A DNA stretch of 64,000 bases from Actinomycetota bacterium (GCA_009885805.1 VFJZ01000009.1:1-64000), one strand, 5' to 3'. Positions 10,278 to 37,016 are shown, counted from the stretch's first letter. Translations and numbers: made by a program. The notes: generated from the letters alone by a model not told the origin.

Positions 10278-11057
10278 ATGACGGACGATGCCGACGCCCG
10301 CGCACCCTACGTCGCCGGCAACTGGAAGATGCACAAGCTGCGCGGCGAGGCGACGGCGTTCGCGCTCGCCCTCGCGGCTCGCCTCGACGAGCTCGACGAG
10401 GTCGACCTGGCGATCGCGCCGCCGCTGACCTGTCTCGCCGAGGTCGCCGACGTTCTGGCGCCACTCGGCGTCGGTGTCCTCGGCCAGAACGCCCACGCCG
10501 CCGCCGGGGGCGCCTTCACCGGCGAGGTGACGATGGCGATGCTGGTCGACGCCGGCGCGACCGGCGTCCTGCTCGGGCACTCCGAGCGCCGGCAGCTTCA
10601 CGGCGAGACTGACGGTGCCCTCGCCGAGAAGCTGCCGGCTGCGCTTGCGGCCGGGCTGGAGCCGATCCTCTGCATCGGCGAGACCGAGGCCGAGCGCGAT
10701 CACGGAGCGACGGAGGCGCGCCTCGCCGCCCAGCTCGAGGCGGGCCTCGCCAACGTCGCCGCCGCCCAGGCCGCCACGATCGTGGTCGCCTACGAGCCGG
10801 TGTGGGCAATCGGCACCGGCAAGACGGCCACACCGGAGCAGGCGCAGGCGGCCCACGCCCACATCCGGGCGGTCCTGGCGGCGCTCGTCGGCGATGAGGT
10901 CGCGGCGCTGATCAGGGTCCTCTACGGCGGCTCCGTCAAGCCGTCGAATGCTGCGGAGCTGTTCGCCCAGCCCGACATCGACGGCGGCCTGATCGGTGGC
11001 GCAGCGCTCGCCGTGGAGGACTTCGTCGCGATCGCCGCGGCCGCCGCGCCACGCTGA
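10278..11057 (+). CDS. tpiA: Triosephosphate isomerase
   Basis: This 259-residue enzyme interconverts dihydroxyacetone phosphate and glyceraldehyde 3-phosphate in glycolysis. GNWKMH holds the substrate-binding lysine, LLGHSERR the catalytic histidine, and VAYEPVWAIGTGKTA the catalytic glutamate and the start of the flexible loop 6. LYGGSVKPSNA and GGLIGGAAL form the phosphate-binding end. The ATG at 10278 has TACCCT ending 7 bases upstream, so the mRNA is probably leaderless; the longer open frame upstream is antisense to the cupin gene. Its stop overlaps the gpmI ATG (TGATG), indicating coupling. Confidence 0.97.
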   Translation: MTDDADARAPYVAGNWKMHKLRGEATAFALALAARLDELDEVDLAIAPPLTCLAEVADVLAPLGVGVLGQNAHAAAGGAFTGEVTMAMLVDAGATGVLLGHSERRQLHGETDGALAEKLPAALAAGLEPILCIGETEAERDHGATEARLAAQLEAGLANVAAAQAATIVVAYEPVWAIGTGKTATPEQAQAAHAHIRAVLAALVGDEVAALIRVLYGGSVKPSNAAELFAQPDIDGGLIGGAALAVEDFVAIAAAAAPR

Positions 11058-12565
11058 TGCGGCCGGTGGCCCTCGTCATCCTGGACGGCCTCGGCATCGC
11101 ACCGCCTGGCCCCGGGAACGCCGTCGAACTGGCGGCGACGCCGGTGCTCGACGGGCTCCTCGCGACCTACCCGTCGACGACCCTCGCGGCCTCGGGGCGC
11201 GCGGTTGGACTGCCGGAAGGTCAGATGGGGAACTCCGAGGTCGGGCACCTGACGATCGGGGCGGGGCGGATCGTCCGGCAGGATCTCGTCCGGGTCTCGG
11301 ATGCCGTCGCCGATGGCTCGTTCCTTCAGAACCCCGCGCTCGTCGCCGCGGCCGCGCGAGCGCGTGACGGCGGCAGCAGGCTGCACATCGTCGGGCTCGT
11401 CTCGGATGGCGGCGTCCACTCGCACGTCGACCACCTCCGCGCTCTCGTCGAGCTGGCGCGACGGACTGGCGTCATCCCGTTCGTGCACGCCATTACCGAC
11501 GGCCGCGACGTCTCGCCCCACCAGGCGGCGCCGCTGCTGGCGGCGCTGGCCGGGGAATGGGCCGACGGCCGGGCCCGGCTCGCGACCGTCTGCGGCCGGC
11601 TCTACGCGATGGATCGGGATCATCGCTGGGAGCGCACGCGACGATTCTACGAGCTGATCGTGACTGGATCCGGGACGCGGGCGGCGTCCGGATCGGCCGC
11701 CGTCGAGGCGTCGTACGGCGCCGGCGTCACCGACGAGTTCGTCGAGCCTGCGCGGCTCGATCCCGACGGCCTGATCCGCCGCGGCGACGAGGTCATCTTC
11801 CTCAACTTCCGGCCCGATCGGGCGCGCCAGATCTGTAGCGCGCTCGCCGACCCGGCCTTCGCCGGCTTCGACCGCGGCGCGGAGCCACCGCTCCCGACCC
11901 TCACCACGATGACCTCCTACGGTGCGGGTCAGCCGGGCGCTGTCGCCTTCGCGCCCGAGCAGGTCGAGGATGTCCTCGCGGACGTCCTCGAGCGTCACGG
12001 CGTGCGGCAGCTGCACGCCGCCGAGACGGAGAAGTACCCGCACGTCACGTACTTCCTGAACGGTGGCGACGAGACCGTTCACGAGGGCGAGGTGCGGATC
12101 CTGGTGCCGTCGCCGCGCGACGTCCGTACCTACGACGAGCGGCCGGCGATGAGTGCGCCCGAGTTGACGCAGCGCGTCTGCGACGCGCTCGTCGGAGGCG
12201 ACTTCGGGTTTGCCGTGATCAACTTCGCAAACCCCGACATGGTCGGTCACACCGGCGTGTTCGACGCCGTGATCGAGGCCGTCGAGGTCGTCGACGGCTG
12301 TCTCGGTCGGGTCCTCGAGGTTGTGGCGCAGATCGGCGGTGTCGCGCTCGTCACGGCCGACCACGGCAACGCCGAGGTGATGCTGACCGCGGCGGGCGAG
12401 CCGCATACGGCCCACACCACGAACCCCGTGCCGCTCGTCATCACCGATCGAGCGTGTGCCCTCGCCGATGGCCGTGGGCTCGTCGATCTCGCGCCGACGA
12501 TCCTCCGGCTGCTCGATCTAGACCAGCCTGCGGCAATGACCGGTCGCATGATCACCCTTGCATAG
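11057..12565 (+). CDS. gpmI: 2,3-bisphosphoglycerate-independent phosphoglycerate mutase
   Basis: This 502-residue member of the alkaline phosphatase superfamily interconverts 3- and 2-phosphoglycerate using two manganese ions. PVALVILDGLGIAPPGPGNA is the metal-binding opening. The phosphorylated serine lies in QMGNSEVGHL near residue 60. NFANPDMVGHTG and TADHGNAE are the second metal-ligand blocks. Length and motifs are those of a complete enzyme. Its product 2-phosphoglycerate is also the substrate of the 2-phosphoglycerate kinase encoded at 33.07 kb. Confidence 0.97.
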   Translation: MRPVALVILDGLGIAPPGPGNAVELAATPVLDGLLATYPSTTLAASGRAVGLPEGQMGNSEVGHLTIGAGRIVRQDLVRVSDAVADGSFLQNPALVAAAARARDGGSRLHIVGLVSDGGVHSHVDHLRALVELARRTGVIPFVHAITDGRDVSPHQAAPLLAALAGEWADGRARLATVCGRLYAMDRDHRWERTRRFYELIVTGSGTRAASGSAAVEASYGAGVTDEFVEPARLDPDGLIRRGDEVIFLNFRPDRARQICSALADPAFAGFDRGAEPPLPTLTTMTSYGAGQPGAVAFAPEQVEDVLADVLERHGVRQLHAAETEKYPHVTYFLNGGDETVHEGEVRILVPSPRDVRTYDERPAMSAPELTQRVCDALVGGDFGFAVINFANPDMVGHTGVFDAVIEAVEVVDGCLGRVLEVVAQIGGVALVTADHGNAEVMLTAAGEPHTAHTTNPVPLVITDRACALADGRGLVDLAPTILRLLDLDQPAAMTGRMITLA

Positions 12566-27985: not shown

Positions 27986-28204
27986 GTGAACGTCGAACGG
28001 GAAACCCTCGCCCAGGTCGTCGACCTGCGTCTGACCGACCTCTGGCGCGAGGTGTTCGAGATCCCGCAGGAGCAGTGGGACCTCGAGCTGCTCGGCTGGT
28101 TCCTGCGCACCGCGTACGGTCAGGGGTACTGCGATGCCCTCCGTGAGCAGCAGCGGGGGCAGCTCTGCCAGGAGCTCTCCGACGCCGTCGCTGCCACGCT
28201 CTGA
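27986..28204 (+). CDS. Small acidic protein, unknown
   Basis: This 72-residue protein (NVERETLAQVVDLRLTDLWR, then LELLGWFLRTAYGQGYCDAL) is predicted to be helical. I recognise no family. A TACGAT box lies exactly 7 bases before the GTG start, so it heads a leaderless transcript. It sits 19 bases upstream of ccmE and may belong with cytochrome c maturation, but nothing in the sequence proves it. Confidence 0.6.
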   Translation: MNVERETLAQVVDLRLTDLWREVFEIPQEQWDLELLGWFLRTAYGQGYCDALREQQRGQLCQELSDAVAATL

Positions 28205-28223
28205 GCGTGGCTACACTACTGCC

Positions 28224-28658
28224 GTGAGCGAGGCAGCGGCACCGGGCGGGCGGCGTCATATCCGACTGGTCTTCGCTCTCGTGATCGCGTCGCTGCTCGG
28301 GACGTTCGCCGTCTACACGGCCCTGATCGGCGACACGACGCCCCTGCTCGGGGTCGCCGAGGCCTCGGCCGGCACCCATCGCGGCGAGGAGGTGAAGCTG
28401 ACCGGCAAGGTCGTCTCGCACAGCGGCGACGCCTCGTCCGCAGCAGGGATGACGATCGTGCTGGCGGACTACGACCAGGCGGGCGAGTCGGTCACCGTGA
28501 TCTACCGCGGCAGCGTCCCCGACGCCTTCCGGGTCGATCGCTCGATCGTCGTCGACGGCACGCTCACCGACGGCATCTTCACGGCGCAGGCCGACTCGCT
28601 GGTCACGAAGTGTCCGTCCAAATACGCCCCGCAGGCCGGCGCGACGACGCAGGGCTGA
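28224..28658 (+). CDS. ccmE: Cytochrome c maturation protein CcmE, cysteine type
   Basis: The 144-residue periplasm-facing heme chaperone has an N-terminal membrane helix (RLVFALVIASLLGTFAVYTA). An OB-fold with LTGKVVSHSG and VTVIYRGSVPDAFRVDRSIV follows. The heme-binding site reads C-P-S-K-Y (cysteine 130, tyrosine 134) instead of the common H-x3-Y. Cysteine-type CcmE proteins are known from some sulfate reducers and archaea and occur with reduced Ccm systems lacking CcmH-type parts. TACACT ends 6 bases before the GTG. ccmF follows 3 bases later. Confidence 0.9.
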   Translation: MSEAAAPGGRRHIRLVFALVIASLLGTFAVYTALIGDTTPLLGVAEASAGTHRGEEVKLTGKVVSHSGDASSAAGMTIVLADYDQAGESVTVIYRGSVPDAFRVDRSIVVDGTLTDGIFTAQADSLVTKCPSKYAPQAGATTQG

Positions 28659-28661
28659 CGG

Positions 28662-30656
28662 ATGGCGACGCTCGGCCGCGGCGCGTTGCTGCTCGCGCTG
28701 CTCCTGGCACTGTACGCCGCCGCGACCGGAGTACTCGGCGCGCGCCGGCGCGACCGGCGCCTGATCGCCTCGGCGCGGCAGTCGACCTACGCGCTGTTCG
28801 GCGCCGTGCTCGCCGCCGACGCGGTGCTGGTCGCCGCGATCGTCGGGCACGATTTCTCCTTTCGGATCGTTGCCGAGACCAGTTCGCGCGAGCTGCCGAC
28901 CGGCTACCTGCTGTCGTCCTTCTGGGCGTCGCAGGAGGGATCGCTGCTGCTGTGGTTGACGATCCTCGCCGGCTTCACCGCCGCGGTCGTCGCGACCAAC
29001 CGCCGGACGAACGGCGAACTGATGCCGTGGGTGATCGCCATCCTGGCGGGAACGTCGGCCTTCTTCGCCGCGATGATGACCTTCGCCGCCAACCCGTTCG
29101 CGACGCAGGTGGCCCCGGCAGACGGGTTCGGGCTCAACCCGTCGTTGCAGAACCCGTACATGATGGCGCACCCGCCGAGCCTCTACCTCGGCTACGTCGG
29201 AGTCGCGGTCCCGTTCGCCTTCTGCATGGCCGCGCTGCTTGCCGGACGGAGCGACGCCCGCTGGATCGTGTCGACCCGCCGCTGGACGCTCGCGGCCTGG
29301 GCCTTCCTCGGCATCGGCATGCTGCTCGGCGCCCACTGGGCGTACGTCGAGGTCGGCTGGGGCGGCTTCTGGGCCTGGGATCCGGTCGAGAACGCCGCGC
29401 TCCTGCCGTGGCTGACGGCCTCCGCGTTCCTGCATTCGGTGATGGTGCAGGAGAAGAAGGGGATGCTGAAGCTGTGGAACGTCGTGCTCGTGACGGCGAC
29501 GTTCGTCCTGTCGCTGTTCGGCACGTTCCTGACGCGGAGCGGCATCCTCTCGTCGATCCACGCGTTCGTGTCGAGCGACATCGGCTACTGGTTCATTGCC
29601 TTCATCGCGGTCGTAATCGCCGGCGCCACGCTTCTCGCCACCCGGCGTTCGTACCTGCTGCGGGCGGAGCATCGGATGGAGTCGCTCGTGTCGCGCGAGG
29701 CGACGTTCCTGTTCAACAACCTGCTCTTCGTCGGGCTCGCCTTCGCGGTTCTCTGGGGCGTCACCTTCCCGCTCATCTCCCAGGCCGTGACAGGCTCCGA
29801 CGTCACCGTCAGCGCGCCGTTCTATGAGTTCTTCGCCGTCGCCTTCGGACTGCCGCTCGTCCTGCTGATGGGGATCGGGCCGCTGATCGCCTGGCGCCGG
29901 GCCTCCCTGCGCAGCCTGCGGACGACCTTCGGGCTGCCGTTCGCGATCGGCGGCGTGGCGGGCGCGATGCTCGTCGCGGCCGGGTATGGCGACCACCCGG
30001 CCGGCGTCGCCGCCTACTCGCTGTCCGTATTCGTCGCGGTCGCGATCGTGCTCGAGTTCGTGCGCGGTACGCGGGCTCGCCGCGCGCTCGGCGACGAGGC
30101 CTGGCCCCGCGCCTTCGTCTCGCTCGTGGGCCGGAACCGGCGGCGCTACGGCGGCTACGTCGTCCACCTCGCCGTCGTCATCTTCGTGATCGGCGCGACC
30201 GGTGTCTCCGCCTACGCGACCGTCGGCGAGGGCGTACTCCGACCGGGCGAGCGCCTCGACGTCGGTGCCTACGCGCTCACGTTCGAGGGTCTCGAGCGAC
30301 GTAGCGGCGCCAACTACGAGGAGCGCTCTGCCGTGCTCACTGTCGCCCGTGACGGCCGTTCGATCGGCACCCTCGAGCCCGGGCAGCGGGCCTATCCGGC
30401 GGAAGGGCAGACATCGAACGAGGTCGCGATCCGCACCGACTGGCGACGCGGGGAGGACCTGTTCGTCATCCTCGACGGCGCCCGGACGGACGGCTCGGTG
30501 AAGCTCAAGGTGCTCGTCAACCCACTGGTGAATCTGCTCTGGGTCGCCGCCGTCGTGTTCGCGTTCGGTGCGCTCGTCGCCGCCTGGCCCGATCGGCGCG
30601 AGGCACGGCGGCTCGCCCGCCGCTACGCCGACGCCACCGTCCCCGGCGAGGCCTGA
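28662..30656 (+). CDS. ccmF: Cytochrome c heme lyase subunit CcmF
   Basis: This 664-residue polytopic membrane protein attaches heme to apocytochrome c. The WWD domain reads WGGFWAWDPVENAALLPWL (from tryptophan 233). Flanking conserved parts are NPYMMAHPPSLYLGYVG and GTFLTRSGILSSIHAF. The C-terminal periplasmic domain and last helix (VLVNPLVNLLWVAAVVFAFG) are present. It receives heme from CcmE encoded just upstream. Size and order match CcmF family proteins. Confidence 0.95.
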   Translation: MATLGRGALLLALLLALYAAATGVLGARRRDRRLIASARQSTYALFGAVLAADAVLVAAIVGHDFSFRIVAETSSRELPTGYLLSSFWASQEGSLLLWLTILAGFTAAVVATNRRTNGELMPWVIAILAGTSAFFAAMMTFAANPFATQVAPADGFGLNPSLQNPYMMAHPPSLYLGYVGVAVPFAFCMAALLAGRSDARWIVSTRRWTLAAWAFLGIGMLLGAHWAYVEVGWGGFWAWDPVENAALLPWLTASAFLHSVMVQEKKGMLKLWNVVLVTATFVLSLFGTFLTRSGILSSIHAFVSSDIGYWFIAFIAVVIAGATLLATRRSYLLRAEHRMESLVSREATFLFNNLLFVGLAFAVLWGVTFPLISQAVTGSDVTVSAPFYEFFAVAFGLPLVLLMGIGPLIAWRRASLRSLRTTFGLPFAIGGVAGAMLVAAGYGDHPAGVAAYSLSVFVAVAIVLEFVRGTRARRALGDEAWPRAFVSLVGRNRRRYGGYVVHLAVVIFVIGATGVSAYATVGEGVLRPGERLDVGAYALTFEGLERRSGANYEERSAVLTVARDGRSIGTLEPGQRAYPAEGQTSNEVAIRTDWRRGEDLFVILDGARTDGSVKLKVLVNPLVNLLWVAAVVFAFGALVAAWPDRREARRLARRYADATVPGEA

Positions 30657-30664
30657 CGCCCCGC

Positions 30665-30949
30665 GTGGAGTACGTCCTGCTCGCCTTGATCGTGGCCGCG
30701 TCTGTCGTCGTCATCGGCTGGCCGTTCCTGCGCGAGCCGAGTGCGGACGACCGCGTCGCGGCGGTCGCTGCCGGTGCGCTCGAGCTGGTCCGCCTGCGGG
30801 AGGAGCGCGACGCCGCGCTCGAGGCCCTGCGCGACCTCGAGCTCGACTGGCGGACCAACAAGGTCGCAGCCGAGGACTACGCGGCGCTCGACGCCGAATT
30901 GCGGGCGCGTGCCAGCGCCGCGATCGAGGCCCTCGAGCAGCACCAGTAA
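30665..30949 (+). CDS. CcmI-like small membrane protein
   Basis: This 94-residue protein has one N-terminal membrane helix (EYVLLALIVAASVVVIGWPF) and a coiled-coil (LREERDAALEALRDLELDWR, TNKVAAEDYAAL), the arrangement of the N-terminal part of CcmI. The tetratricopeptide part of CcmI is missing. The D-x-x-T-x-K-x-x-x-x-D-Y motif is common in short CcmI-like proteins next to ccmF. It should help handle apocytochrome. Its stop TAA forms the first half of the -10 box of the next gene. Confidence 0.75.
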   Translation: MEYVLLALIVAASVVVIGWPFLREPSADDRVAAVAAGALELVRLREERDAALEALRDLELDWRTNKVAAEDYAALDAELRARASAAIEALEQHQ

Positions 30950-30958
30950 GATGGCACC

Positions 30959-31738
30959 GTGGCCGCCCGGCCCTTCACCATCGCGCACATCTCCGACCTG
31001 CACTGCGGGTCGCCGTACTTCGTCCCGAACCTGATGGACCGCGCGATCATCGAGATCAACGATCTCGAGCCGGACGTCGTGGTGGTGTCGGGTGACCTGA
31101 CCACGTTCGGCTTCCGCCAGGAGTACCTCCAGGCCCGCGCCTACCTGGACCGCATCGACTGCCCGGACGTGATCGTCGTCCCCGGCAACCACGACTCCCG
31201 CAACGTCGGGTACGTCCACTTCGAGGAGCTGTTCGGTGCGCGCCAGCAGGTGCTGCGGCGTGCGGACGTCTGCCTGCTGGCGGTCGACTCGTCCGAGCCG
31301 GATCTCGATCACGGCGTCGTCGGCCGCTCCCGTTATCCGTGGATCATCAAGGAGTTCGCCGTCCCCGCCCGCCTGCGGATCTTCGTGCTCCACCATCATC
31401 TTCTGCCGATTCCGGGCACCGGTCGCGAGCGCAACGTCGTCCACGATGCCGGCGACGCACTCGAGGCGCTCTGCGCGAGCGGTTGTCGGCTCGTCCTGAG
31501 CGGCCACAAGCACGTCCCCCATGCCTGGCGGATCGAGGACCTGTTCGTCGTCAACGCCGGCACCGTCTCGACGTTGCGGCTGCGTGGGAAGGGTCGGCCC
31601 TGTTACAACGTCGTCGAGGTGCACGACGACCGGGTCGAGGTTCACCGCGCCTACCCGTTCCACGAGCGCGACCGCATCCTGGAGTTCTCGCTGACGACCC
31701 TCGACCACCGCAAGTGGCCGCCCGGCGCCGCGCGATAG
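30959..31738 (+). CDS. Metallophosphoesterase (calcineurin-like)
   Basis: This 259-residue enzyme has IAHISDLHCGSPYF, VVSGDLTTFG, VPGNHDSRN, LHHHLLPIPGTG and LSGHKHVPHAW, the full set of metal ligands in the calcineurin-like family, and resembles the CpdA/Icc phosphodiesterase branch. The substrate is unknown. TAAGAT (30947-30952) ends 6 bases before the GTG and overlaps the stop codon of the CcmI-like gene. The 3' end overlaps the synthetase gene by 25 bases. Confidence 0.9.
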   Translation: MAARPFTIAHISDLHCGSPYFVPNLMDRAIIEINDLEPDVVVVSGDLTTFGFRQEYLQARAYLDRIDCPDVIVVPGNHDSRNVGYVHFEELFGARQQVLRRADVCLLAVDSSEPDLDHGVVGRSRYPWIIKEFAVPARLRIFVLHHHLLPIPGTGRERNVVHDAGDALEALCASGCRLVLSGHKHVPHAWRIEDLFVVNAGTVSTLRLRGKGRPCYNVVEVHDDRVEVHRAYPFHERDRILEFSLTTLDHRKWPPGAAR

Positions 31739-33030
31739 CGCTCGTCGACGGCGAGCACTACCCGCCCGTCGTCGCTGCAGCGATCGAGGTGACCGGTGGC
31801 GTCGTCGCCGCGCTGCTCCTCGGCGGCTCCGAGAAGCTCCGTGGTGCGCCGGTGGCAGCCGATTACGGCGTTGCCCGGCTCGACGAGGCGCTCGGCGACG
31901 CGCCGGCGGCGCTCGCACGGCTGATCCGTGACACGCGAGCCGAGGTTGTCATCGATCTCAGCGACGAGCCGGTCGCCTCGCAGCGCGATCGCCTGCACCT
32001 CGCCGCCGTCGCCATGGCCGGTGGCGCCGCCTATCGCGCGGGCGGCCTGACGATCGAGCCCGAGGATCGGATCGCCTACGCCTATCCGGCGATCGCCGTC
32101 GCCGGTACCGGCAAGCGGGTGGGGAAGACCGCCGTCGCCGGGCACCTGGCACGGATCGCGCGTGGCGCACTGACGCCGGGTGCGGTCGTGATCGTCGCGA
32201 TGGGCCGTGGTGGACCGGCTGCGCCCGAGCTGATCGACCCGACCGCGACGCCGCTCGGCATCGCCGACCTGCTGGTGCGGTCGCGGGCCGGCGCCCACGC
32301 CGCCTCGGACTTCCTCGAGGACGCCGTCCTCGCCGGCGTTCCCGCGATCGGCTGCCGGCGCTGCGGCGCCGGCCTCGCCGGCGATGTCATCCATTCGAGC
32401 GTGGCCGAGGGCGCGGCGCTGGCGGCGAGCCGACGGCCCGCGCTGACCGTGTTCGAGGGCTCCGGCGCCGGCCTGCCGCCGGTGGACGTGGCGCGCACCG
32501 TCCTCGTCACCTCGTCGGCCGCGCCGCCCGAGGAGGTGCTCGGCTACCTGGGGCCGTACCGCCTCCTCCGGGCCGACGCCGTCATCGTCGTCGGCGAGCG
32601 CGGCTCGTCGACCCTGATCGACGGCATCAGGGCGCTGCGTCCGGGTGTGCCGGTCGTCGAGGCCACCCTGCGCCCGCGGCCGGCGGCCCCGATCGACGGC
32701 CGGCGGGTCGCCGTCTTCACGACCGCGCCGGCGGCACTGCACGACGCGCTCGCCCGCGAGCTGCGCGATCGCTACGGCGCGACCGTCGAGTCGGTGTCCG
32801 GAGCCCTCGCCGACCGGGTCGCCCTCCGCGCCGCGATCGACGCGTCGCGTGCCGAGGTCTTCCTGACGGAGCTGAAGGCGGCGGCCGTCGACGTCGTCGC
32901 GGAGGCCGCCGTCGTGCGCGGAGTCGAACTCGTCCTGGTCGCGAACGAACCGGTCGCGCTGGACGGCTCCGACGCCGTCGACCACCTGCTGCTGACCCTC
33001 GTCCGCGAGGCGACTGCAACCGGATCGTGA
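31714..33030 (+). CDS. cpgS: Cyclic 2,3-diphosphoglycerate synthetase
   Basis: This 438-residue enzyme closes 2,3-diphosphoglycerate into the cyclic anhydride with ATP. It opens AIALVDGEHYPPVVAAAIEV. The ATP-binding loop is AVAGTGKRVGKTAVAGHLAR near residue 131, and IVAMGRGGPAAPELIDP and VFEGSGAGLPPVDVARTV are further conserved blocks. The family was defined in Methanothermus and its homologues occur in some actinobacteria. GTG at 31714, inside the end of the phosphoesterase gene, gives the family-like start. The next gene encodes the 2-phosphoglycerate kinase that makes its substrate. Confidence 0.88.
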   Translation: MAARRRAIALVDGEHYPPVVAAAIEVTGGVVAALLLGGSEKLRGAPVAADYGVARLDEALGDAPAALARLIRDTRAEVVIDLSDEPVASQRDRLHLAAVAMAGGAAYRAGGLTIEPEDRIAYAYPAIAVAGTGKRVGKTAVAGHLARIARGALTPGAVVIVAMGRGGPAAPELIDPTATPLGIADLLVRSRAGAHAASDFLEDAVLAGVPAIGCRRCGAGLAGDVIHSSVAEGAALAASRRPALTVFEGSGAGLPPVDVARTVLVTSSAAPPEEVLGYLGPYRLLRADAVIVVGERGSSTLIDGIRALRPGVPVVEATLRPRPAAPIDGRRVAVFTTAPAALHDALARELRDRYGATVESVSGALADRVALRAAIDASRAEVFLTELKAAAVDVVAEAAVVRGVELVLVANEPVALDGSDAVDHLLLTLVREATATGS

Positions 33031-33067
33031 TCTGCGGCGCGGCGGCCGTGGCTACGCTTGTCACACC

Positions 33068-33952
33068 ATGCCCGGCCGGACCCGCCTGGTCGTCTCCGCG
33101 GAGCGCGAGTTCCCCTACTCGAAGGGGTTGATGGCGCAGTCGCTGATGGCGTGCGGCCTGGCGCCCGACCGCGCCTATCGGATCGCGCGCCTCGTCAACG
33201 CGGAGTTGCAGCGTGGCAGCGATACGCTGGTGACGACCGACGAGCTGAGGGCGGTCGCAACGGGAGTGCTGGAACGGGAGGAGGGTGGAGCTGCTGTCGC
33301 GCGCTACCGGCGCTGGCACGACCTCCGCCACACCACCGAGCCGCTGATCGTGCTGATCGGCGGTGCGCCCGGCACCGGCAAGTCGACGGTCGCGACCCAG
33401 GTCGCTCATCGCCTCGGGATCACGCGCATCGTCTCGACCGACGTCGTCCGTCAGGTGATGCGGGCGGTGATCGCGCCGGAGGTGCTGCCGCAGATCCACA
33501 CCTCGTCGTTCGACGCCGCGCGCCTGATCCCCGAGGGCGCCGGTGGCGATCGGACGATCGGTGGCTTCTGGCAACAGGCCGAGACCGTTCGCGCCGGCCT
33601 GCGCAACGTCGTCGCCCGCGCCGTCGAGGAGCGCTTCCCGCTGGTGCTGGAGGGCGTCCACCTCGTTCCCGGCGTGCCCCTCCTCGCAGGCGACGCGACG
33701 GCGCAGATCGTCGAGGTCGTCCTCGCCTCGGCGGACCCGGGCCAGCACCAGGCGAACTTCGTGCTGCGGGCCGAGAACACGAGCGACGCGCGGCCCGCCG
33801 AGCGCTACCTCGACGCCTTCCACGCGATCCGCCAGATCCACGACTTCCTCGTGCTCGAGGCGAAGCGCTGCGGCACGCCGATCGTGGAGGCGACGGACAT
33901 CGACGGCGCCGTGCGGGCGGTGATGGACCTGGTGCTCGTGCGCGTGGCGTAG
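33068..33952 (+). CDS. 2-phosphoglycerate kinase
   Basis: This 294-residue protein has an N-terminal ATP-cone-like region (FPYSKGLMAQSLMACGLAPD) and a P-loop kinase domain. IGGAPGTGKSTVATQVAHRL starts near residue 98, followed by STDVVRQVMR and LEGVHLVPGVPL. The arrangement is that of archaeal 2-phosphoglycerate kinase, which makes 2,3-diphosphoglycerate. It follows the cyclising synthetase by 37 bases, so the pair forms a two-step pathway from 2-phosphoglycerate. TACGCT lies 9 bases before the ATG. Its TAG stop overlaps the -10 box of the next gene. Confidence 0.87.
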   Translation: MPGRTRLVVSAEREFPYSKGLMAQSLMACGLAPDRAYRIARLVNAELQRGSDTLVTTDELRAVATGVLEREEGGAAVARYRRWHDLRHTTEPLIVLIGGAPGTGKSTVATQVAHRLGITRIVSTDVVRQVMRAVIAPEVLPQIHTSSFDAARLIPEGAGGDRTIGGFWQQAETVRAGLRNVVARAVEERFPLVLEGVHLVPGVPLLAGDATAQIVEVVLASADPGQHQANFVLRAENTSDARPAERYLDAFHAIRQIHDFLVLEAKRCGTPIVEATDIDGAVRAVMDLVLVRVA

Positions 33953-33962
33953 GCTTCGGCCG

Positions 33963-34778
33963 GTGCCGACACTCGCCGACCTGCACAGGGACGCCCGCGA
34001 ACGCGGCATCGAGCGCTACCGGACGCTGACGCGGGACGAGCTGTCCGCGCTCCTCGACGGGCCGCGCGTGGCCGTGCGAGTCGACCGTCACGGCCCGCTC
34101 GCCGTGATCGTCCTCGATGATCCGCCGACCAGGAACGCGCTGTCGAGCGCCGTGCTCGACGCGCTCGACACCGTGCTCGCCGACCTCGAGCGCGACACCG
34201 ACGTGCGGCTCGTGGCGTTGACGGGGGCCGGGCCGGTGTTCTGCGCCGGCGCGGACATCCGCGAGTACGACGCCCTGACCGATGGCGGCGCCCTCCTCAC
34301 CGACCGCGGCACCGCGGTGCTCGACCGTCTCGCCGGTCTCGCCGTTCCCACCGTCGCCCTCGTCAACGGGCACGCAGTCGGCGGGGGCATCGAGCTCGCG
34401 CTCGCCTGCGATTGGCGCCTGATCGCGCCCGCGGCCGAGCTCCGCTTCGTCCACGCGACGCTTGGCCTGACGCCCGGGTTCGGCGGGCTCGGCCGGCTCG
34501 CGCGGCTCGTCGGCGACGGCATGGCGTTGCGCCTCCTGGCGACCGCCGACGTGATCTCGGGCCGCCGCGCCGTCCAGATCGGCCTCGGCGACGGCGTCGT
34601 GACGGCGCCCGAGCAGCGGGCCGAAGCCCGACGACTGGCCGACCGTGTCGCCGTGACTGATCGCAGCGCCGTCGCGGCTGCGAAGGGGGCGCTCGCGACG
34701 GGCGGGCGGGCCGCCGAGCGAGCGGCGTTCATCGCCTCCTGGCCGAACCGGCTGCTGCCGGACGCTGCCCGGGCCTGA
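33963..34778 (+). CDS. Enoyl-CoA hydratase/isomerase with a Rho-N-like head
   Basis: Residues 45-270 form a crotonase fold: LIVLDDPPTRNALS-type opening (VIVLDDPPTRNALSSAVLDA), GAGPVFCAGADIREY for the first oxyanion hole, and VNGHAVGGGIELALACDWRL for the second. It should hydrate or isomerise an acyl-CoA. The first 38 residues (TLADLHRDARERGIERYRTL then TRDELSALL) match the Rho termination factor N-terminal helical motif, normally a nucleic-acid-binding module. TAGGCT ends 7 bases before the GTG and starts with the stop codon of the kinase gene. Confidence 0.85.
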   Translation: MPTLADLHRDARERGIERYRTLTRDELSALLDGPRVAVRVDRHGPLAVIVLDDPPTRNALSSAVLDALDTVLADLERDTDVRLVALTGAGPVFCAGADIREYDALTDGGALLTDRGTAVLDRLAGLAVPTVALVNGHAVGGGIELALACDWRLIAPAAELRFVHATLGLTPGFGGLGRLARLVGDGMALRLLATADVISGRRAVQIGLGDGVVTAPEQRAEARRLADRVAVTDRSAVAAAKGALATGGRAAERAAFIASWPNRLLPDAARA

Positions 34779-34801
34779 CCGCTGTCGGCTATCCTCCAGG
34801 G

Positions 34802-35098
34802 ATGGTCACCGAGGAGATCGTCCGCGACGCGCTCAACCTCGTCGAGGACCCCGAGCTGATGATGGGGATCGTCGACCTCGGTCTCGTCTACGAGGTGCAG
34901 ATCGAGGACAGCAAGGTCAAAGTGATCTTCACGCTGACCTCGATGGGCTGCCCGGTCGGGCCCTGGATCGCGGAGCAGGTCGACCTCGCCGCCCGCGGTG
35001 TCGACGGGGTGGAGGAGGTCGAGACCGACCTCGTCTTCTCGCCGCCCTGGAATCCCGAGATGATGTCCGACGACGCGAAGTTCGCGCTCGGCTTCTAG
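34802..35098 (+). CDS. MIP18/SufT-like Fe-S assembly protein
   Basis: The 98-residue protein is a MIP18 (DUF59) domain. [20 protein letters not shown] and [17 protein letters not shown] with the conserved cysteine are diagnostic, and [17 protein letters not shown] is the typical end. Related proteins (SufT, PaaD) help Fe-S cluster maturation. No suf genes lie nearby. TATCCT ends 6 bases before the ATG. The 3' end overlaps the convergent rnhA gene by 4 bases. Confidence 0.92.
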
Positions 35099-35556: not shown

Positions 35557-35645
35557 CGCGGCAGGCTACCGGGCCGGCGTGCCCTTGACGACGGCCACGA
35601 CAGCGACTACGTATGAGAGAGGTATCCCCCCCGAAGGAGGCCCCT

Positions 35646-37016
35646 GTGGCCGCCATCTCCGCTCTCCCCCCGGCACCGGTCGCCGCCGGCAGCGCGCGCA
35701 GGATCGCCGCGCTCCGTGCCTGGCTCGGCACGTGCGGGTACGACGAGCCCGGCCTGAGGACACTGCTCGGGGCGAAGGAGGCGTCGCTCGTCGAGGCCGG
35801 TGCGCGGCCCGCAGCCCGGCGCCGCCTGCTGGAGGCAGACTCGCCCGCGGCGCTCGTCGCGATGCTGTTCCTCGTCGGGGAGTCCGTCGCGACCGGCTCG
35901 CTCGTGCGTCGGATCGGGCCGCTGGCGGACGAACTGCAGGCGCTCGGGCTGCTCCTGATCACCGGCGACCTGGCCGTGCCTGCGGTGCGACTCGTGCCGT
36001 ACGATCGGCTACTGATCGCGAGCGACCTCGGCGGCGCCGCCATGACGTCCATCCCGCCGGTCGACTGGTCGGCCTCGCGGCTCGCGTCCCTCACCGTCCG
36101 CCGGCACGTCCGGCGCGCCCTCGACATCGGCACCGGAAACGGCCTGCAGGCGCTGCTGATGAGCCGTCACGCCGACCGTGTCATCGCGACCGATGCGAAC
36201 GAACGGGCGCTGGCGTTCGCGGCGTTCAACTGCGCGCTCAACGACATCGACAACATCGAGTTCCGGCACGGTCACCTACCCGACCCCGGTGCCGGCGAGT
36301 GTTACAGCCTCGTGGTTGCGAACCGCGCCGGCCCGTTCCCTGACGGCGGCGCCGCATCCGAGGCGATCGTGAGGGCGCTGCCAACGCTGCTCGAGCCCGG
36401 CGGCTACGGGACGGCGCTGATCACGTGGGACGCGACGCACGGCGACATCGCCGACCTGCCCGCCGGCTGGTTGGACGGCGAGGATGTCGACGCCTGGGTA
36501 TTGCACACGGGCACGCAGGATCCGATCGAGGCCGCCACCGGCCTCGGCGGCGCGGAGCCGGACGCGGACGGAGCGATCGAGCACTGGCTGGCCGAGTACG
36601 GTCGCCTCGGGGTTCAGTTCATCGCGTCGGGCGCCGTCGTCGTGCGGCTGCGCCCTGGTGGCGGCACGGTCCGCGCGATCGGCCTGCCGAGCCACGTCCG
36701 GCCCGACGCCGGCGCGCATCTCGAGCGGATGTTCGACGCGCCGCATGCGCCGCTCCGGCCCGGCGCTCGCGTGGCACTCGTGCCCGGCGTCGAGCTCGTC
36801 GGCTGCGAGCGACCGGGGGCCGGGGGCTGGACCGTCTCCTCCTACGAACTGCGGCTCCGCGACGGACTGCGGTTCGCCGCGGAACTCGACGCCGAGGCGG
36901 CAGCGATCGTGCGTGAACTCGACGGCCGTTCGACGGTGGCGGACCTTGCGCTCGGCGTCGCCGAGCGACGGTTCGTCCAGCGGTTGGTCGAGCTCGGCTT
37001 CGCAGAAGCGGCGTAG
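35646..37016 (+). CDS. SAM-dependent methyltransferase (DUF7059-like)
   Basis: This 456-residue protein has an N-terminal helical region (about 1-130), a class I methyltransferase domain (DIGTGNGLQALLMSRHADRV is the SAM motif I; ATDANERALAFAAFN is motif II), and a C-terminal region of about 200 residues. This layout is common in actinobacterial homologues that usually carry an NPPF catalytic motif. Here that position reads VVANRAGPFPDGG, so the catalytic asparagine-proline-proline is not seen. GTG at 35646 has a perfect AAGGAGG site 5 bases away, which is better than ATG 35613. Confidence 0.75.
   Translation: MAAISALPPAPVAAGSARRIAALRAWLGTCGYDEPGLRTLLGAKEASLVEAGARPAARRRLLEADSPAALVAMLFLVGESVATGSLVRRIGPLADELQALGLLLITGDLAVPAVRLVPYDRLLIASDLGGAAMTSIPPVDWSASRLASLTVRRHVRRALDIGTGNGLQALLMSRHADRVIATDANERALAFAAFNCALNDIDNIEFRHGHLPDPGAGECYSLVVANRAGPFPDGGAASEAIVRALPTLLEPGGYGTALITWDATHGDIADLPAGWLDGEDVDAWVLHTGTQDPIEAATGLGGAEPDADGAIEHWLAEYGRLGVQFIASGAVVVRLRPGGGTVRAIGLPSHVRPDAGAHLERMFDAPHAPLRPGARVALVPGVELVGCERPGAGGWTVSSYELRLRDGLRFAAELDAEAAAIVRELDGRSTVADLALGVAERRFVQRLVELGFAEAA

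Follow-up and report, generated by a model that had tools for sequence, protein, structure and literature searches.

Does a bacterium encode the route by which methanogens make cyclic 2,3-diphosphoglycerate (cDPG)? The question arises from a locus in an Actinomycetota genome, carried on a stretch of 64,000 nucleotides (the window), in which adjacent genes for cDPG synthetase and 2-phosphoglycerate kinase (2PGK) had been predicted at 31714–33952. A 2023 paper describes cDPG as exclusive to hyperthermophilic methanogens (PMC10690619), and the literature found for "diphosphoglycerate synthetase" concerns methanogens, Pyrococcus yayanosii, ammonia-oxidising archaea and reviews. No description of a bacterial cDPG pathway was found in the literature searched, which covered few subscription papers; the name of the gene by itself may already stand in databases. 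The host, a soil-type actinobacterium, has relatives at the level of the Gaiellales, and its genome (3.56 Mb, 95% complete) holds the window on contig C30. Both predicted open reading frames are present, with full-length family matches, as the second and third genes of a block on the + strand that reads metallophosphoesterase, cDPG synthetase homologue and 2PGK homologue. The first of these, a third conserved part of the locus at 30959–31738, had been overlooked in the original prediction.

The synthetase and kinase homologues

The gene at 31714–33030 (+ strand, 438 aa, GTG start) encodes, as judged from its sequence and predicted fold, a full-length homologue of cDPG synthetase (cDPGS). No Pfam model exceeds its cut-off and no NCBIfam model matches the protein. 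Its phmmer matches are three solved chains, each bearing the name cyclic 2,3-diphosphoglycerate synthetase (8ork, E 6.2e-72; 8oru, 9.6e-72; 9sxb, 8.9e-71), and they cover residues 4–430, nearly the entire length. Foldseek with the predicted structure (pLDDT 89.8, pTM 0.89) yields no PDB matches at E ≤ 0.001 other than the two cDPGS entries of Methanothermus fervidus, at TM scores of 0.90/0.86 and 0.87/0.83, the value of 0.90 being that for 8oru by query length over 456 columns. In this model the structural alignment includes the N-terminal domain particular to cDPGS, for which the crystal study reports no counterpart in other proteins (PMC10690619).

The likeness extends to the active site. 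In the M. fervidus crystal, 2,3-DPG, Mg2+ and phosphate are contacted by E45, K46, K145, R146, K149, T150, D208 and K406 (PMC10690619), all of which are kept in an alignment of the window protein, 9SXB and 15 relatives and are invariant among 27 bacterial sequences. The window synthetase thus shares with the M. fervidus enzyme (8ORK/8ORU) and 9SXB full-length homology, the P-loop GTGKRxGKT and the residues that bind substrate and metal. Among the adenosine contacts, T353 and E404 are conserved, E305 is glutamate in the window protein and aspartate or a gap in some relatives, and the column for P335 shows phenylalanine under the numbering used, so that this residue could not be placed. Unlike the M. 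fervidus enzyme, to which it is 35% identical over 418 aligned residues, the window synthetase is bacterial and is encoded in a block with a metallophosphoesterase. In a quick tree, whose only non-actinobacterial sequences were 8ORK and 9SXB, it groups with other Thermoleophilia (support 93) on an end branch that is unusually long (1.08 changes per site, where the median is 0.2), though the active-site residues checked are retained. Recent transfer into the host genome was rejected on the strength of this grouping, long branch included.

The kinase gene (33068–33952, + strand) follows the synthetase after a gap of 37 nt; the two genes also adjoin each other in the Pyrococcus yayanosii pair PYCH_14390-400 (PMC4890121). 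Its 294-aa product consists of an ATP-cone-like N-terminal region and a P-loop kinase and, like archaeal 2PGK, matches the family models at full length, N-terminal region included, with 283 bits for PRK12337, the longer form, and 271 bits for PRK04220 (positions 8–291 of 306, E 1.6e-80). Unlike archaeal 2PGK, the window kinase is bacterial and scores below the curated equivalog cut-offs, which are 343 for PRK04220 and 603 for PRK12337, a model of a longer protein. It is therefore named here a 2PGK homologue and no certified equivalog, and the assignment of its substrate rests on the nearest family together with the neighbouring gene. The related model PRK12338 gives only 140 bits. Identity as a mevalonate-3-phosphate 5-kinase was rejected at 77 bits for PRK12339 (cut-off 250), far under the 2PGK scores, as was a Zeta-toxin reading (Pfam Zeta_toxin, 22 bits against 271–283). 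By these model scores the protein is clearly nearer to 2PGK than to mevalonate-3-phosphate 5-kinase.

TACGCT (33053–33068) and TAGGCT (33950–33963), both fitting TANNNT, lie about 7–9 nt 5' of the start codons of the kinase and of a downstream enoyl-CoA hydratase, respectively. Since neither gene has a clear ribosome-binding site, both could be leaderless starts from internal promoters.

The supply of 2-phosphoglycerate had been attributed to a GpmI at 11.06–12.57 kb, and a 2,3-bisphosphoglycerate-independent phosphoglycerate mutase is indeed encoded there, outside the block, at 11057–12565 (+ strand; TIGR01307, 624 bits against a cut-off of 330.65). No 2,3-BPG-dependent mutase (GpmA) scored over its cut-off in the 95%-complete host genome; priming of such a mutase is therefore no obvious purpose of the kinase, and that explanation was set aside. 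A broader alternative is that the kinase chiefly supplies 2,3-bisphosphoglycerate as a cofactor or regulator, while the synthetase homologue turns another phosphorylated acid into some other cyclic or activated phosphate, the substrate of the phosphoesterase. The modest identity to the archaeal synthetase leaves room for this, as does the occurrence of the kinase elsewhere: mesophilic methanogens have 2PGK without the synthetase, suggesting other roles (PMC2686161), and COG2074 is found in Thermus and Deinococcus (PMC1274311). 2PGK-like genes, mostly below cut-off, also turned up in the control genomes of Thermus, Deinobacterium, Haloferax and Sulfolobus; the kinase family may thus also act outside cDPG metabolism. 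This alternative is nevertheless improbable when set against a host that has GpmI and no GpmA over cut-off, the invariance of the 2,3-DPG and metal contacts E45, K145, R146 and D208 among the bacterial synthetases, and the nearly constant co-occurrence of kinase and synthetase in the phylum.

A conserved three-gene block and the candidate hydrolase

The overlooked gene at 30959–31738 (+ strand, 259 aa, GTG start), whose 3' end is overlapped for 25 nt by the synthetase's GTG start at 31714, encodes a calcineurin-like metallophosphoesterase, a candidate cDPG hydrolase or phosphodiesterase (Pfam Metallophos PF00149, 64 bits against a cut-off of 21.5). The nearest solved structures are those of the class III phosphodiesterases Rv0805, a cyclic-nucleotide phosphodiesterase, and GpdQ, a glycerophosphodiesterase, with which it shares the calcineurin-like fold and the dinuclear metal motifs. 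The metal-site motifs DxH, GD, GNHD, HHH and GHKH are invariant in the alignment of the family, and the set of class III dinuclear metal residues is complete (D13, H15, D46, N77, H78, H145–147, H183 and H185, invariant in 20 rows). The window family differs from Rv0805 and GpdQ in its low identity to them (~20–24%), in invariant stretches of its own (HHHLLPxPGTGRERN and RLRG) and in its tie to cDPGS genes. Further invariant residues are basic (R81, R95, R123, R156, R158, K184, R207 and R209), and these arginines and the lysine are what would be expected for a highly anionic substrate. The phosphoesterase is also the best conserved of the three proteins, with a mean pairwise identity of 66% against 53% and 51% for the other two.

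A defence-system reading was rejected, since PADLOC returned a weak match to the phosphoesterase (30 bits) and nothing for the synthetase or kinase. In the phylum sample described below, many genomes of three families (f6, f20 and f26) carry a second, more distant phosphoesterase copy, and in two genomes of f6 (G167 and G408) a copy persists with synthetase and kinase absent.

Across relatives the three genes keep their company. Where enough upstream sequence is available, the phosphoesterase lies directly 5' of the synthetase in 76 of 79 named loci, at 52–71% identity, and the overlap of the two genes seen in the window recurs at L100, L108 and L119. The kinase lies directly 3' of the synthetase, within 0.7 kb, in 64 of 64 informative loci, defined as non-Rubrobacter relatives with enough contig left; this placement argues that the pair is no chance neighbourhood. 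Rubrobacteraceae depart from the pattern, with the kinase not next door in 13 of 13 loci; genomes of this family (f20) mostly hold it elsewhere. When the open reading frames of 80 named loci were clustered, only the phosphoesterase, synthetase and kinase families recurred across lineages, the remaining neighbours being lineage-specific, such as the cytochrome c maturation genes of Gaiellales. Phosphoesterase, synthetase and kinase therefore form a conserved block within neighbourhoods that change. Divergence is correlated among the three proteins (r 0.87–0.90 between their matrices, 60 loci), an agreement that also reflects shared descent.

Immediately 5' of the block in the window are ccmE, ccmF and a short CcmI-like open reading frame (28134–30949); the same ccm cluster stands ~2.5–3 kb upstream of the block in other Gaiellales, with intervening genes. 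Closely 3' lie the enoyl-CoA hydratase and a SUF-type FeS assembly protein (33963–35098), the latter gene being found downstream in many Gaiellales and absent from the Rubrobacter or Coriobacteriia loci. Farther on, 35613–37016 encodes a methyltransferase between domains resembling DUF7059 and DUF7782, both below cut-off.

Synthetase relatives lie on 476 contigs in a scan that took one genome per species. The best 80 of these 476 matches are all from actinobacterial or untitled bacteria, mostly actinobacterial MAGs, and span Thermoleophilia/Gaiellales, Rubrobacteria, Coriobacteriia, Acidimicrobiia and unclassified members. Searches of viral contigs and of plasmids returned no synthetase relative. 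Among 396 Actinomycetota genomes sampled across the phylum, the synthetase is present in 200, the kinase in 198, the phosphoesterase in 198 and all three in 187; carriers of the synthetase also hold the kinase in 194 and the phosphoesterase in 193 of the 200 cases (Fisher p ~1e-99 and ~1e-96, uncorrected for shared ancestry). Within the host's order, 69 of 101 genomes have all three genes and 27 have none, by hand counts that took a kinase E below 1e-15 and a phosphoesterase identity of at least 57%. Joint absences recur inside a single family, f3 (G036, G042, G052, G053, G059 and G060), which argues for repeated joint loss. By homology, then, the pathway is widespread in deep-branching Actinomycetota and is no peculiarity of this bacterium. 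In the window's own family, only one other genome has any part of the block, a contig-edge kinase of 62% identity (G002:C232:85-966, locus L037), and the other 14 members searched are without all three genes.

These patterns bear on whether the phosphoesterase belongs to the pathway at all. It might instead have no part in cDPG metabolism, synthetase and kinase making cDPG by themselves; as a cyclic-nucleotide phosphodiesterase, for example, it could stay beside them through nothing more than chance or co-regulation. The solved proteins nearest to it do act on cyclic nucleotides and glycerophosphodiesters, and at three loci (L125, L142 and L153) it is missing next door. Such an assortment is unlikely, however, in view of its adjacency to the synthetase at nearly all loci, in differing gene contexts, and of its presence in almost every synthetase genome and loss together with the synthetase. 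A role as cDPG hydrolase is accordingly proposed, as an inference from synteny and co-occurrence together with the phosphodiesterase-like relatives and the basic residues; that it acts on cDPG or 2,3-DPG is judged slightly better than an even chance. No gene named for cDPG hydrolase was found in the literature searched. In Methanothermobacter the activity is known biochemically and is membrane-bound (PMC1224877). The window protein resembles the cDPG hydrolase of Methanothermobacter thermautotrophicus in proposed reaction only: the archaeal enzyme, compared here by its biochemical description, is membrane-bound and inhibited by K+ and phosphate, whereas the window phosphoesterase is predicted to adopt a plain soluble fold.

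Heat protection or a turnover-controlled reserve

The two-step archaeal route claimed for the locus stands as far as its genes are concerned, both enzymes being encoded, adjacent and co-inherited; production of cDPG itself we infer from them. By homology, the kinase would convert 2-phosphoglycerate and ATP to 2,3-diphosphoglycerate, and the synthetase would use a second ATP to form cDPG, ADP and Pi. During cyclisation, the phosphates may be shielded by Mg2+ and the GKRxGKT P-loop, an idea put forward for the M. fervidus synthetase, whose residues and mechanism have been described (PMC10690619). The dinuclear metallophosphoesterase would then return the cyclic anhydride to 2,3-diphosphoglycerate, so that the operon could both build and draw down a trianionic reserve of phosphate, energy and carbon that also serves as an osmotic counter-ion. 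That carriers make cDPG is quite probable on the homology of both enzymes, within limits set by the 35% identity to the proven enzyme, the long branch of the window synthetase and a kinase below both 2PGK cut-offs.

The role of the compound is a separate matter. It had been suggested that cDPG may here protect against heat or drying, or store phosphate, and it might accumulate as a solute protective against heat, drying or radiation, much as it does in hyperthermophilic methanogens, with the phosphoesterase confined to trimming excess. The enzymes are the same as those of the methanogen pathway, in archaea the compound shields proteins and DNA (PMC10690619), and among the carriers are some soil or Rubrobacter lineages that face drying or heat. 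Against this, MAGs titled fen and palsa (L104, L105 and L118) carry the block. Methanobrevibacter smithii is a mesophile. cDPG has been reported in that methanogen too (PMC1224877), and Gaiella occulta, of the same order as the host, has its optimum at 35–37 °C (PMC6741124). Taken together, the fen and palsa carriers, the Gaiella optimum and the M. smithii report make heat protection unlikely as a general function, and this part of the original prediction is not upheld. A 16S rRNA gene, sought in the host MAG as a proxy for growth temperature, was not found. In the available portions of two Rubrobacter reports (PMC4148983, PMC3505630), the solutes named are trehalose, mannosylglycerate and some DIP, not cDPG, and the 2012 study quantified only those three. 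To the extent of those portions, cDPG is no obvious bulk solute in Rubrobacter, and the idea of an accumulated protectant appears unlikely overall.

A reserve that is turned over, rather than mainly a heat protectant, is the favoured role, with a reasonable likelihood of being correct. A review takes the regulation of cDPG degradation in Methanothermobacter to suit storage of carbon and phosphate (PMC1224877). The preferred account of the locus as a whole, held as somewhat probable, is that the operon makes cDPG from 2-phosphoglycerate, that the phosphoesterase hydrolyses it, and that the product is a phosphate, energy and anion reserve controlled by turnover. A wider generalisation is offered more tentatively, as falling a little short of an even chance: that cDPG occurs widely as a metabolite in deep-branching, largely non-thermophilic Actinomycetota, where it is handled by a dedicated three-gene operon whose phosphoesterase is the cDPG hydrolase, and that it is a general bacterial phosphate and energy buffer, not an archaeal heat protectant.

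The enzyme families themselves are already known; what is new is their occurrence in bacteria as a set of three genes, together with the candidate hydrolase. The phosphoesterase provides a sequence candidate for cDPG hydrolase, and an operon conserved in roughly half of the Actinomycetota genomes sampled would bring cDPG to common bacteria of soil, subsurface and wetland. In hosts that are non-hyperthermophilic and partly culturable (Rubrobacteraceae and probably relatives of Gaiella), the candidate roles of cDPG in heat protection and as a phosphate or energy store could be tested.
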